A stretch of 48,931 nt of DNA from Pseudobdellovibrionaceae bacterium. Lineage in GTDB: Bacteria; Bdellovibrionota; Bdellovibrionia; Bdellovibrionales; Bdellovibrionaceae. Location: positions 1 through 48,931 of the forward strand of contig JABWCN010000034.1 of assembly GCA_013359135.1 (NCBI GenBank), in the 5' to 3' direction. The translations under genes were made by a program, and so were the position numbers. Every line of letters begins with the position of its first letter. The stretch's first letter is position 1. Under the pieces are notes generated by a model. That model ran no database searches. It had not been told where the DNA came from and was given only the letters and a program-made list of their open reading frames with translations. Below, one piece after another: positions 1-48,931 of this stretch.

Positions 1-38
1 ATGTTTTTTGTAGCTTGCATGTTTTTACCTAAAATAAG

Positions 39-1340
39 ATGATCTCTCCTATGAAAATCACTTTTCAAAAGTCGACATTGAGATCTGGAGCTAAATTAGT
101 AACTGAAAATCATCCTTACTCGAAATCTTTTTCTGTAGGTTTTTGGGTAAATGTGGGATCACGTTTTGAGAATCCTGAAATTGCAGGGATTACTCATTTT
201 CTTGAACATTTAACTTTTAAAGGAACCAAGAAAAGATCTGCCTTTGAGATTGCTCAGTCTTTGGAGTCCTATGGTGGGGATTTGAATGCCTTTACAACCA
301 AAGAGCATACGTGTTTTCATGGTTTAGTGTTGAAAGAAAACTGGCAACAGGCGTTGGAAATTTTGGTAGATATTACGACTAATATGAAATTCAGCTCTAA
401 AGATTTTAAGAATGAAAAAAATGTCGTTATTCAAGAAATTGGAATGAGTGAAGATACTCCTGATGACATAATTTATGATTATCTTTTAGAAGCATTGTTT
501 CCAAATCATCCTATGGGAAAGCCTATTTTAGGACAAATTGGAACCATTCATCGATTAAAAGAGGCGCAGGTCTATGATTATTATAATACATTTTATCAGG
601 GTGAGAATTTAGTTATCAGTTGTGCTGGAAATTTAAATCATAAAAAAGTAGAGTCCTATTTAAACTCCTTATTAAGTAAGAAAAAAACTAAAGATAATAC
701 TCTTAAAAAACTTTTGTTAGATACTAAAGGTTTTGAAAAACCTGAATTCCATCGTTGTCGCTTGGTTAGAGAAAAGGCAACCGAGCAAACTCATCTTTTG
801 TTAGCATTACCTTCTTCTACATTTACAGATGAACTAAGGATGGAAGCATTTATTGTGAATTCTCTATTGGGAGGAGGAATGACTTCCAAACTATTTCAGA
901 GTGTTAGAGAGAATAAAGGGCTTGCCTATTCCGTTCAAAGCTTTTTACATACTTTAAAAGATACAGGTTTTATAACGATACAGGCGGCCTCGGATGGTAA
1001 GAAAATCAAAGAGTTGACGAATGTTATTTTAAAAGAGTTAAAGTTACTTAAGAAAAAAGGGATTAGTAAAAAAGAGATCGAGTTTTATAAAAATCAAATT
1101 AAGGGTAGTATTTTGCTTGGTTCAGAGGATATAGAGAATCGAATGAACTCTTTAGCAGTTAATGAGTTGGTCTTTGCTCAGCCTAAAAGTGTAGCGCAGA
1201 TTCAAAGAGAGATTGAAAAAATTAGTTATGACTCTGTTCATGAGTATCTAGATAACTACTTGCAGATTGATAAGTTATCGGGAATATTGCTAGGACCAAA
1301 GGTTGAAAATCAATCTCTATGGTGGGAACAGTTTAATTAA
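39..1340 (+). CDS. M16 family zinc metallopeptidase (PqqL/mitochondrial processing peptidase-like)
   Basis: This is a 433-residue M16 (pitrilysin-superfamily) peptidase. The inverted zinc motif HFLEH is at residues 53-57 and the third ligand, E133, lies the expected 76 residues after H57. The second M16 half carries the RENKGLAYSV segment, the usual R/Y pair. The length is that of a single two-domain subunit of the kind found in bacterial homodimers. I see no signal peptide, so a cytoplasmic enzyme acting on peptides is likely. The ATG at 39 overlaps an upstream TGA (40-42) in another frame, which would be the end of a gene outside the window. A second in-frame ATG at 51 is an equally possible start. 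It is followed 15 bases later by dut, so the two are probably co-transcribed. The family call is firm; the substrate is unknown. Confidence 0.93.
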   Translation: MISPMKITFQKSTLRSGAKLVTENHPYSKSFSVGFWVNVGSRFENPEIAGITHFLEHLTFKGTKKRSAFEIAQSLESYGGDLNAFTTKEHTCFHGLVLKENWQQALEILVDITTNMKFSSKDFKNEKNVVIQEIGMSEDTPDDIIYDYLLEALFPNHPMGKPILGQIGTIHRLKEAQVYDYYNTFYQGENLVISCAGNLNHKKVESYLNSLLSKKKTKDNTLKKLLLDTKGFEKPEFHRCRLVREKATEQTHLLLALPSSTFTDELRMEAFIVNSLLGGGMTSKLFQSVRENKGLAYSVQSFLHTLKDTGFITIQAASDGKKIKELTNVILKELKLLKKKGISKKEIEFYKNQIKGSILLGSEDIENRMNSLAVNELVFAQPKSVAQIQREIEKISYDSVHEYLDNYLQIDKLSGILLGPKVENQSLWWEQFN

Positions 1341-11363: not shown

Positions 11364-12203
11364 ATGGGAATGAAACGTTTTAAAAATCTTCAACACAGTT
11401 ATTACCCAAGGAATCAGCGAGGTTCTCTTGTAATTCAACTGATGATGGTAAGTGTTGTGGTAACGATCTTTCTTGGTTATTTAATGTCGACGACTCAGCT
11501 CACAAATTTGGCTCAGAAAAATTTTGTAAACAATCTTGAATTGCAAAGTTCGTGGATGTTAGCAAAGCAAGCAATGACGACGGCAGCTACTTGTGGTTGT
11601 CAGCTGAGTGGTAAAACTTTTTCTGTTGCAAGCGCTAGTACTGCAGTTTTAGAGCTAGAAAGATTACGAACTGGATGTTCGTTAGATGCCGATGAAATTA
11701 TCAGAGCTCGTAGTGTTCGTTCCGATGTTGAACCAAATAGTTTTGTTCAGAAAATAACCTTAAGTCATTTTGTTCCTAGAAGTGGTGGTGAGTATACCGC
11801 TGATTTACGAGCGTATTCTGAATCTGCCTCTAATCAAACTATGAAACAGCTTGATCCCATTGAAGTTGTTATTTACACTACAGAGCGTGGGGGAGAGGTA
11901 ACTATTCAGGGATGTGGGGCTAGACCTATCTCTGCTCCTGTGGGGTTGGTTTCATCTTCGCAGGCTGCGGCTTGTAGCTTAAGTTGGTCAGCCTCGACAG
12001 GGCAAGCGCCTCTGATTTATAACGTGAAGTGGTCTCAAACACCTGGTGAAGCCTCTCAGGGGGTTATTGGTTGTTCAACGACTACATCAAATTGTTTAGT
12101 TACTGGTTTGACTCCTGGAGTAAGTTATTACTTTGCATTTCAGGTGGTGAATTCATTTCAGGCCACAGCTTTTTCATCTGAAGTTGCGTGTGTTCCTCTT
12201 TAA
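11364..12203 (+). CDS. Pseudopilin-like protein with one cysteine-rich fibronectin-III-like module
   Basis: A 279-residue protein with a short basic leader, then RGSLVIQLMMVSVVVTIFLG, which resembles a type IV prepilin cleavage site and helix. However, the position equivalent to Glu5 is Gln, as in GspK/PilX-like minor pilins that tip the fibre. The next region has ATCGCQLSGK and ends in IQGCGA, Cys framing shared with the two other pseudopilins in this window. Residues about 189-279 form an Fn3-like module (APVGLV...CSLSWS...CSTTTSNCLVTGL...VACVPL) with four cysteines. The start could be 11364 or 11370; neither has a good ribosome-binding site. It probably shares a transcript with the next pseudopilin gene. 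Confidence 0.68.
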   Translation: MGMKRFKNLQHSYYPRNQRGSLVIQLMMVSVVVTIFLGYLMSTTQLTNLAQKNFVNNLELQSSWMLAKQAMTTAATCGCQLSGKTFSVASASTAVLELERLRTGCSLDADEIIRARSVRSDVEPNSFVQKITLSHFVPRSGGEYTADLRAYSESASNQTMKQLDPIEVVIYTTERGGEVTIQGCGARPISAPVGLVSSSQAAACSLSWSASTGQAPLIYNVKWSQTPGEASQGVIGCSTTTSNCLVTGLTPGVSYYFAFQVVNSFQATAFSSEVACVPL

Positions 12204-12226
12204 AAAATTATTGTGTAAGGGGTTTG

Positions 12227-13654
12227 ATGAAGACTAGAAGAGCGAATATTTTTTTTTATAGAAGCTCAGAGGGTTTCACGTTAATCGAGATACTGGTTTC
12301 TTTGGGGCTTGTTGGTATTATTTCTATGGCAATAGCAGCTCTGTTTCATGTGATGAATGAAGAGCAGAGAAATATAAAAGCACGTATGGAAATGGCGACA
12401 GCTTTGCAGATGGCGCAAGGAGTTTTAGCTCGTACCCAGGATTGTTCATGTCAGTTTCAGGGGAAAAGATTTGATTCTACAAGTGCTAGTTCTTCTGTAG
12501 ATATTGATAGATTTAAACTCAATTGTTTACCTGGAGCACCTGAAGTTTTTCGTAAAACTGGAGTAGGTGGAGTCAGTGGACCTGAGCTTATTGTCGATAG
12601 AATCAGTTTAAGTCAAATCCAAGCGACTGGAAATAGTGAAGAGTTTATTGGGAAGTTTATGGTGACTCCTCTTACTGGAAGTTCAAGCCGCATTCAGAGG
12701 GTTATTCCCTTGAACGTAAGGTTTTATACAGATCCAGCCACGCCGGCTAACTCTAAACGAATAGTTGCTTGTGGCGCTGTTCCTATTTCTGTTCCTGCAA
12801 ATTTAGCTGCTGTTGCTGGAGATGCTAGGTGCTCATTGAGTTGGTCTGAATCTGCAGGAGCCAAGCCGATTGTTTATGTTGTTAAGACCTCGACGACTCC
12901 AGGGGGAGCTTCAACAGGTGGTACTGTGTGTTCCACTCCAGCTAATAATTGTCTTGTGACGGGATTGGCAAATGATGTGGATCACTACTTTTCAATTCAA
13001 GCTGTCAATCAAACGGAGGCTTCAGCATTTGCTACACCGGAAGTTATTTGTCATCCCTTGCAGCCGGTCTCTGCTCCGACACTAATGGTATCAAATACTG
13101 GTACTGCCTGTAATCTTTCATGGGCAAGGCCTGCAGGTTCGCCGACTATCTCGTATACTGTGAAACATTCTGCTGTGGCTGGTGGTTCTGCTACGGGTGT
13201 AGTGGTTTGTTCGACCACAGGTTATTCTTGTGTACACAGTGGGTTACCAGTGAACTCAACCCAGTTTTATTCTTTGATGGCTACAAATCCTGTAAATTCG
13301 GCGCTGTCGGTTGAAGTTGCTTGTTTTGTTCCTTCTCCAACGATTTTAGTGTTACCTGCGATTGTGACAGGGCCAGTTGGTAGACGTTGGGGGATCAATA
13401 CTTTTCTTCCTCCTAATAATGGACGGGTTAATTCAACACAAGCCGTGTTTAATTTTTCCGCCTCGGGAGGGACGGGAAGATACACTTATTCTATAAGAAT
13501 TTTAGCAAGCCATGGAGAAGCGATTTCAATGAATGCGACCACCGGGGTTTTAACTGTAACAGGTGATAGAAATCGTAATAGCAGTTATGAGGTGACGGTG
13601 TCTGATGGTATCACGAGAGCTTCACAAGTAATAAATTTGAATATGTGGTGGTAG
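12227..13654 (+). CDS. Type IV pilin-like protein with two cysteine-rich Fn3-like modules and a C-terminal Ig-like domain
   Basis: I start this 475-residue protein at 12227 (AAGGGG lies just upstream) rather than at an earlier ATG overlapping the previous gene. The prepilin motif EGFTLIEILVSLGLVG has Glu at +5. Then come DCSCQFQGK and IVACGA, matching the Cys framing of the upstream paralogue, and two Fn3-like modules beginning at about 12784 (SVPANL) and 13067 (VSAPTL). Each module has four cysteines (CSLSW or CNLSW, CST, NC or SC, VIC or VAC). A putative Ig-like domain closes the protein (ASGGTGRYTYSI...GVLTVTGDRN). It is a likely surface or pseudopilus component with adhesive modules; the export machinery is not in this window. 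Confidence 0.72.
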   Translation: MKTRRANIFFYRSSEGFTLIEILVSLGLVGIISMAIAALFHVMNEEQRNIKARMEMATALQMAQGVLARTQDCSCQFQGKRFDSTSASSSVDIDRFKLNCLPGAPEVFRKTGVGGVSGPELIVDRISLSQIQATGNSEEFIGKFMVTPLTGSSSRIQRVIPLNVRFYTDPATPANSKRIVACGAVPISVPANLAAVAGDARCSLSWSESAGAKPIVYVVKTSTTPGGASTGGTVCSTPANNCLVTGLANDVDHYFSIQAVNQTEASAFATPEVICHPLQPVSAPTLMVSNTGTACNLSWARPAGSPTISYTVKHSAVAGGSATGVVVCSTTGYSCVHSGLPVNSTQFYSLMATNPVNSALSVEVACFVPSPTILVLPAIVTGPVGRRWGINTFLPPNNGRVNSTQAVFNFSASGGTGRYTYSIRILASHGEAISMNATTGVLTVTGDRNRNSSYEVTVSDGITRASQVINLNMWW

Positions 13655-46416: not shown

Positions 46417-47151
46417 TTGAAAACATTCTTTTTTTCTAAAAAAAAGAATGTAGATTCCGATTATAGACTTATGCGAGTTCCATTATCTTTATTTTTACAA
46501 TTTGTACTTCTATTAACGTGTTCCTACGTTTGGTTTTATAAAGAAGTGAGTGATTACTTCTCTGACGAAAAATTTGTTAAGATGGAACTTAGGCGTATAG
46601 AAAAGAGTTTAGAGCAAAAGGAATTTGAGAAGCAAGTAGTAGCTTCGCAATATGATATGTTTAAGATTCAGACTATGGCTATGTTAGATGGTGATGAAAC
46701 CATCAAACGCACTGGCCTGGTTTATCAAAACTTAAAGTCGGCATTGAGAGCACCAGCATCAGTTAAACCCTTAGATATGAGTGAATTAAGAGTTGAGGAA
46801 TTGCGAAGCACTTTTCGAGAGAAAAATTATTCAAAGGCAATTTCCTTAGGTGAAGGATTAATAAAGCAAAAATCCCTTCTAGTTGTACAACCTGAAGTTC
46901 TATTTTTCTTAAGTGAGTCTTATTTTTTAACTCAACAATACGAAAATGCTATTGGTAGAATTAATGAGCTAGTTAAGCTTTATCCTGAGCATATCATGAC
47001 GGGTTATGCTTTGCTGCGATTGGCTCAAGTTAGTGAAAAAGCAGAACAGACAAACGAAGCAGAAGCAATATATAAAATTATTATTTCTCAATTTTCTGAC
47101 AAAAATTTAGAAAAAGAAGCGAAGAGAGCTTTGGCTAGTTTGAATGAATAA
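46417..47151 (+). CDS. Membrane-anchored TPR-like protein
   Basis: A 244-residue protein with an N-terminal membrane helix (LFLQFVLLLTCSYVWFY), a charged helix, and a C-terminal part with two tetratricopeptide-like repeats (PEVLFFLSESYFLTQQYENAI and MTGYALLRLAQVSEKAEQTNEAEAIYKII). The start is uncertain: TTG at 46417 or ATG at 46471; neither has a ribosome-binding site. The next gene overlaps its end by eight bases. Confidence 0.65.
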   Translation: MKTFFFSKKKNVDSDYRLMRVPLSLFLQFVLLLTCSYVWFYKEVSDYFSDEKFVKMELRRIEKSLEQKEFEKQVVASQYDMFKIQTMAMLDGDETIKRTGLVYQNLKSALRAPASVKPLDMSELRVEELRSTFREKNYSKAISLGEGLIKQKSLLVVQPEVLFFLSESYFLTQQYENAIGRINELVKLYPEHIMTGYALLRLAQVSEKAEQTNEAEAIYKIIISQFSDKNLEKEAKRALASLNE

Positions 47152-48532
47152 GTTATTCAGCCTCATCATTATTATCCATTTTTCAAGTTTTTCATACGGA
47201 CTATTGCAGAGTCCTCAGGGGTGCTTGTTGAGTCAGAATTTCAAAAAAGACTGCTATTTTGGCACTGTGAAAAAGTATGAGCAGTTTAATCAAGAGAATG
47301 CTAAGTATTATTTGGGAGTAAAAACAGTGTTGGGCAACAAGGATGGGAAATTGACATTGTTTGATGGGGAAATGCTTGTAGAGGTCGAGCAAGAATTTAA
47401 TTTAAAAATTGGATTAATAGAAGTTAAATTAACTCCGGGGGAGTATTATTTTTTTGACTCTGCAGATAAAATAACAGTTCGTTGTTTGTCAGGGATGGCG
47501 GAAGTTCGCTCAAAGAATGGTAACTTAAAACAAATCACTGAAGGTTTTGAAGTTCATATTGATGACAAAGAGTTCAGTGAGTCAACTTTTTCCTCATTAA
47601 GGGTAATTCCTTTGGAGTCACATCTGTTGTCTTATTCCAAATTAAAAAAGTTGAATTCATCACAAATTGTCGCATATGCAAAAAAATTTAAAGCAAAGCA
47701 TAAAAACTATGTAGCTTGGCTTGAAGATTTAAACCATACTTTGATCGAGAGAATGATAGCTGAAGAAAAAAAAGAGAAAGCTGATGCTGAGCAGAGAAAA
47801 AAAATGATCGAAAGACAAAAAAAAGGCCATTGGGACCTGACTTTAGCCAATGCATGGGGAGTGCTAGCGGTCGAAAAATTTGCAGCTGCATTTGAAAAAG
47901 AGAATGTAACGGGAACGACAAGCGCAAGCTATGCCTCGCAAACAAAAAATCTCGATTGGGTTAAACAAGTCAAAGGAGGCGAGCTTGCTTTTAGTTGGCA
48001 GCCGCGTACTGAGAATTTTACAGTGAAGCATACAGGTGGAGGAAAGCCCTGGATGACATTGCAATCTTTTGCTGCAATCCCATTAAAAAATGCGCTTTCA
48101 TCGGGTTATCGTATTCAAAAAACATGGATTCCTGTTGAGCAAAAAACCAAAGGAGCGTGGACACGTGGGGATGTAGTAAAAGTGAGGCTCGAGATGGATG
48201 CACAGACGGATCGATCTTGGGTGGTTGTGCAAGATCCCATTCCTGCCGGAGCTTCTATTTTGGGGTCAGGTTTAGGAAGGGATTCGCAACTCTCGACTCA
48301 AGGTGAAGAACAAAAAGGGCGCGCTGATTTGGCATTTGTGGAGCGGAGTTTTGAAAACTACCGCGCTTACTACCAGTATGTCCCAAAAGGTGCATGGACC
48401 CTGGAGTATACGATTCGACTCAATCAAAATGGAGTGCTCCAAATGCCCGCAACTCGTGTGGAGGCCATGTATTCACCCGAGCTTTTTGGTGAGTCACCCA
48501 ATAGCGATTTTAAAATTGTAGAATCCGATTGA
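47144..48532 (+). CDS. Chimeric protein: FecR-like N-terminal part fused to the C-terminal end of a bacterial alpha-2-macroglobulin
   Basis: A 462-residue protein. It has a signal peptide (FSLIIIIHFSSFSYG), a FecR-like segment (about residues 55-150; KIGLIEVKLTPGEYYFFDSA, VRCLSGMAEVRS), a lysine-rich coiled coil (190-228) and then, from about residue 229 (WDLTLANAWGVLAVEKF), sequence characteristic of the last part of bacterial alpha-2-macroglobulins: end of the thioester helical domain, VVVQDPIPAGASILGSGL, YVPKGAWTLEYTIRLNQNG and MPATRVEAMYSPELFGESPN. No CxEQ thioester is present, so the trapping function should be lost. pbpC, the normal partner of these macroglobulins, follows at once. The base composition jumps at the join. 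Either a deletion/recombination product or an assembly misjoin. Confidence 0.75.
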   Translation: MNKLFSLIIIIHFSSFSYGLLQSPQGCLLSQNFKKDCYFGTVKKYEQFNQENAKYYLGVKTVLGNKDGKLTLFDGEMLVEVEQEFNLKIGLIEVKLTPGEYYFFDSADKITVRCLSGMAEVRSKNGNLKQITEGFEVHIDDKEFSESTFSSLRVIPLESHLLSYSKLKKLNSSQIVAYAKKFKAKHKNYVAWLEDLNHTLIERMIAEEKKEKADAEQRKKMIERQKKGHWDLTLANAWGVLAVEKFAAAFEKENVTGTTSASYASQTKNLDWVKQVKGGELAFSWQPRTENFTVKHTGGGKPWMTLQSFAAIPLKNALSSGYRIQKTWIPVEQKTKGAWTRGDVVKVRLEMDAQTDRSWVVVQDPIPAGASILGSGLGRDSQLSTQGEEQKGRADLAFVERSFENYRAYYQYVPKGAWTLEYTIRLNQNGVLQMPATRVEAMYSPELFGESPNSDFKIVESD

Positions 48533-48931
48533 TGAAGTCTATGAGGGTGCTTATGTCGTGTGGATTCCTTGTTCTGGGTGTATATCTTTTTTTAGGAATA
48601 CCCATAGCCAAGGCTAAGATGGCATTTGAAGATTTTAAGGAACAGTACCAAATTTCGGAAGCGCAGCTCTTGGATCGTCACGGAAATAGGGTTGATGAAG
48701 TTCGATTAGACTTTAGAGAGCGTCGTTTAGAGTGGACCAAGCTTGATGAGATTGCTCCTGATTTATTAAAAATGCTTTTATATGCCGAAGATCGGAATTT
48801 TTATAAACATGCAGGCGTGGACTGGACTGCGCTATTAAGCGCGGGGATAAAAAATCTATTTTTGGATAAGACCCGGGGTGCAAGTACAGTCACAATGCAA
48901 CTTGCCAGTTTTATAGAACCTCGGCTCAAAA
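48532..48931 (+). CDS. pbpC: Penicillin-binding protein 1C, N-terminal part (cut by window end)
   Basis: The ATG at 48532 shares its A with the preceding TGA. The 133 codons present encode a membrane anchor (residues 5-25) and the start of a GT51 glycosyltransferase domain: LLYAEDRNFYKHAGVDW and RGASTVTMQLASF, the EDxxFxxHxGxD and GAST-TMQL motifs. PbpC polymerises glycan strands and is usually encoded beside an alpha-2-macroglobulin that protects the cell when the envelope is breached. The rest of the gene, with the transpeptidase domain, lies beyond the window. Confidence 0.9.
   Translation, partial: MKSMRVLMSCGFLVLGVYLFLGIPIAKAKMAFEDFKEQYQISEAQLLDRHGNRVDEVRLDFRERRLEWTKLDEIAPDLLKMLLYAEDRNFYKHAGVDWTALLSAGIKNLFLDKTRGASTVTMQLASFIEPRLK

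Follow-up and report, generated by a model that had tools for sequence, protein, structure and literature searches.

A macroglobulin tail joined in frame to an exported-protein gene at a contig end of a Pseudobdellovibrionaceae genome is very probably a chimera of library preparation or assembly

The stretch of DNA analyzed here (the window, 48,931 nucleotides) is the complete contig C74 of a genome assembled in 94 contigs from a Pseudobdellovibrionaceae bacterium, with a listed completeness of 99.98% and a listed contamination of 1.15%. Close to its right end, a plus-strand frame of 462 codons with an ATG start occupies positions 47144-48532 and, as a previous sequence-only reading had described, joins two unlike halves in a single open frame. 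The start of this frame is overlapped by a native TPR gene (46417..47151, plus strand), a conserved upstream neighbour identified by its TPR matches and found in the same order in congeners. Residues 1 to ~224 (47144..47816, plus strand) correspond to a native exported-protein gene with separate homologous genes in five congeners; an A8 tract follows at the join (47817..47824), in the codons QKK of the motif ERQKKG, and the rest of the frame (47825..48532, plus strand) is the foreign 3' end of an alpha-2-macroglobulin gene of the Burkholderiales type, carrying a bMG10 domain at 48104-48481. Finally, the start of a foreign pbpC gene, with its transglycosylase domain, lies at 48529..48931 on the same strand and is cut by the end of the contig, 1.1 kb beyond the join.

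The GC counts reported for four lines of 60 bases (15, 19, 29 and 32) were reproduced exactly on recount, and the GC jump described at the join was also borne out, the content rising from 33.9% before it to 46.5% after it. Given that the rest of the contig has a mean GC of 35.9% with a standard deviation of 3.3% (700-base windows), the jump amounts to about 3 standard deviations.

Residues 321-446 of the frame match the full length of the Pfam domain bMG10 (PF17973, E 2.9e-27). No thioester domain, N-terminal macroglobulin region or other macroglobulin domain was detected in the 462 residues, bMG10 being the sole macroglobulin domain found, in agreement with the earlier description of a macroglobulin C-terminus devoid of the thioester motif and of the large N-terminal part. 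The pbpC gene placed after this tail was also recovered, as the frame that follows, which meets no stop before the contig ends, matches the start of PBP1C (TIGR02073, E 1e-22). The macroglobulin tail showed a best identity of 59% to Burkholderiales, versus 45% and 39% to order-level and family-level relatives of the bacterium, and in a single scan of species genomes it matched Massilia and Telluria only (54%). When 399 Burkholderiales genomes were surveyed with a threshold of E up to 1e-70, 33 matched the tail, which is contained within frames of 1192-2190 codons in 32 of them and within a frame of 777 codons in the remaining one. The pbpC fragment displays 51% identity to Burkholderiales versus 36-38% to the relatives G010 and G035, and the pbpC start is, judging by this sequence affinity, part of the same foreign fragment as the tail.

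In one class of bacterial macroglobulins the gene often neighbours that of PBP1c (PMC3328433), thus the order of tail and pbpC would be ordinary for the donor. As in those PBP1c-linked alpha-2-macroglobulins, the foreign fragment has a C-terminal bMG10 domain with pbpC directly downstream; unlike them, it keeps only the last ~235 residues of the protein. The remaining ~1700 residues of the foreign macroglobulin are absent from this genome, where only the last 258 residues of the G035 macroglobulin found a match when this protein was used as query, and no fitting continuation of pbpC was found elsewhere in the genome.

The first half of the frame is a separate gene in all five congeners (frames of 233-251 codons), sharing 31-34% identity with its homologues. 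All five homologues end in F(F/Y)xKVFER followed by a stop, or nearly so; this conserved end (FxKVFER*) falls ~10 residues past the join in the window, the native gene at 47144..47816 being left without its last ~10 codons and its stop. The upstream genes in G003 are the same as in the window, namely a ChaN-like gene, one for an HD-domain response regulator and the TPR gene, and the same gene ends recur in the other congeners. In all five congeners the gene that comes next on this strand is that of a coiled-coil protein (in G004 only its start was covered), and in G003 it is followed by pyruvate kinase.

The first half had been labeled FecR-like, a name that was not confirmed: neither this half nor its five congeneric homologues gave a Pfam FecR match even at E 10 (weak matches could be masked by the HMMER filters), solved structures lent no support to a FecR identity, and the stretch that was read showed no sigma factor gene next to the exported-protein gene. 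The label is a fair guess from the beta-rich pattern of the sequence. A short, exported protein whose middle is beta-rich, as the earlier reading had it, would resemble the FecR-like exported proteins; it differs from them in giving no FecR match and in having no sigma factor gene in view beside it.

Homology to the congeneric proteins stops at residues 220-227 and homology to macroglobulins starts at ~219-226 in those alignments that do not continue into the lysine-rich stretch; ERQKKG with its A8 tract lies where both homologies switch (residues ~219-227). The tract, together with the similar lysine-rich codons on either side, is a plausible place for a false overlap. None of 40 relatives has the fusion or any match spanning the join.

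The coiled-coil gene and the pyruvate kinase gene of this genome are found on another contig, at the end of C81, which is where they should be if this contig is the neighbour of C74, the native interval between the two contig ends being ~0.3 kb in congener coordinates. Moreover, the coiled-coil frame on C81 has its N-terminal ~55 residues replaced in frame by ~225 residues of a leucyl-tRNA synthetase. This Bacteroidota-like leuS fragment (locus L041, ~11950-12653, minus strand) is joined to the coiled-coil gene 0.7 kb from the end of C81; its top three matches in a plasmid collection were Bacteroidales leuS (61-64%), the other matches listed reaching at most 50.5%, and the genome has its own leuS as an 874-codon frame on contig C59, 46% identical to the fragment. 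The end of C81 is thus a second chimeric contig end, partner of that of the window, and both contigs flanking a single native gap run into foreign DNA, each from a different phylum.

Taken together, we are highly confident that the frame at 47144-48532 is a chimera which arose at the end of C74 when the library was prepared or the genome assembled, and not a real gene fusion, the join having probably arisen in vitro or in silico and not in a cell. The window has the traits of a chimeric contig end: its join is near the end, its sides differ in taxonomic affinity (the first half to congeners, the second half best to Burkholderiales) and the join is private to this genome among the 40 relatives. 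The true gene would encode a separate exported protein of ~235 residues, followed by a short spacer, the coiled-coil gene and pyruvate kinase. According to this model, C74 would have met a gap within the last codons of the exported-protein gene and, at the A8 tract, would have been continued into DNA that belongs to another member of the community or to a contaminant, namely the 3' end of an alpha-2-macroglobulin gene of Burkholderiales type plus the start of its pbpC; from the other side, C81, entering the coiled-coil gene, would have been continued into a leuS fragment of Bacteroidota. Both foreign ends would be the outcome of chimeric reads or false overlaps where coverage has a gap. An assembly misjoin at the A-rich tract near 47.82 kb had been offered in the sequence-only reading as one of two explanations, and it is the one now strongly supported, by the chimeric end of C81 with DNA of another phylum and by the absence of the macroglobulin remainder; its counterpart, a real recombination of a FecR gene with a transferred macroglobulin-pbpC tail, gives way to it, and the new envelope architecture that would have followed finds no support.

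Some observations sit less easily with a misjoin. Both joins keep the reading frame, which would occur by chance ~1 in 9 times if they were independent; the overlap is only ~10 bases, which is short for a de Bruijn assembler, chimeric reads and a false overlap both being candidate mechanisms; and a composition survey of the other contig ends revealed no clear general fault. In that survey 15% of 68 contig ends had z < -2 versus 2.6% of interior windows; on reading, however, several of the worst ends were ordinary conserved genes or transposases, so composition by itself is no proof of a systematic contig-end fault.

The preserved frames could also speak for a real, horizontally acquired stretch lying between the FecR-like and the coiled-coil genes, with the macroglobulin tail and pbpC as its left edge and the leuS fragment as its right edge, whose insertion would have removed ~0.3 kb and left each of the two broken genes in an in-frame fusion; C74 and C81 do flank the same native interval, and the foreign pieces could be two edges of one insert. 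To this reading we give a slim chance, as its edges come from different phyla (Burkholderiales and Bacteroidota), each being a truncated chromosomal gene, no features of mobile elements were seen at the joins and all five congeners lack an insert at this place; two foreign ends at one native interval are very unlikely as a single biological event. Slimmer still is the chance that a real foreign insert between the two native genes gave rise, beside a transferred pbpC, to a chimera in which an exported FecR-like domain continues in frame into a macroglobulin MG10 tail. A functional fusion, in which the exported FecR-like domain and the macroglobulin MG10 tail act with the adjacent PbpC in the envelope, could draw on the open frame, the hydrophobic leader-like N-terminus, the complete bMG10 and the pbpC immediately downstream, and if true it would connect an exported sensor-like domain with the macroglobulin-PBP1C pair in a new way. 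We consider it scarcely credible: it is absent from all 40 relatives, the native protein loses its conserved C-terminus at the join, the contig end of the neighbouring native gene is chimeric too, and pbpC is cut by the contig end, no fitting continuation having been found. The comparison with related genomes, which had been suggested as a way to refute the fusion, points in the same direction, as the relatives have two separate genes.

Genomes derived from metagenomes are known to contain chimeric contigs caused by misassembly, an error that is relatively rare (PMC8201837), and the present genome is presumably metagenome-derived, to judge from its mix of foreign lineages. The chimeric contigs of that GUNC paper join fragments of different lineages, as is seen here at two ends of the same native gap; unlike them, the foreign parts measure only 1.1 and 0.7 kb and keep the frame, therefore they mimic gene fusions and would hardly shift contamination scores. 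The reading as a misjoin does away with a false domain architecture and marks a genome of 99.98% listed completeness and 1.15% contamination as one with chimeric contig ends, which would pass for fusion proteins in gene calling.

Three minor observations concern other loci and the exported-protein family. Transpeptidase fragments at the starts of contigs C65 and C20 were considered as the remainder of pbpC and discarded, since on reading they look like other PBPs; that on C65 (locus L042, positions 1-693, plus strand) begins at the contig start and its frame enters unrelated-looking sequence near base 540, so the start of C65 is possibly a third chimeric contig end. The genome's own macroglobulin, a different one, is encoded on contig C82 (locus L052, 2558-8537, plus strand), where its coding sequence is divided between two frames, of 434 and 1568 codons, with an overlap at an A-rich tract (EIKKKK / KKKKYFF); the split reflects either a sequencing error in the homopolymer or slippage at this site. 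The native exported proteins (window 47144-47816; L027, L028, L029, L030 and L031) form a family without a Pfam match that is present in all five congeners and adjoins the TPR gene and the large coiled-coil gene.
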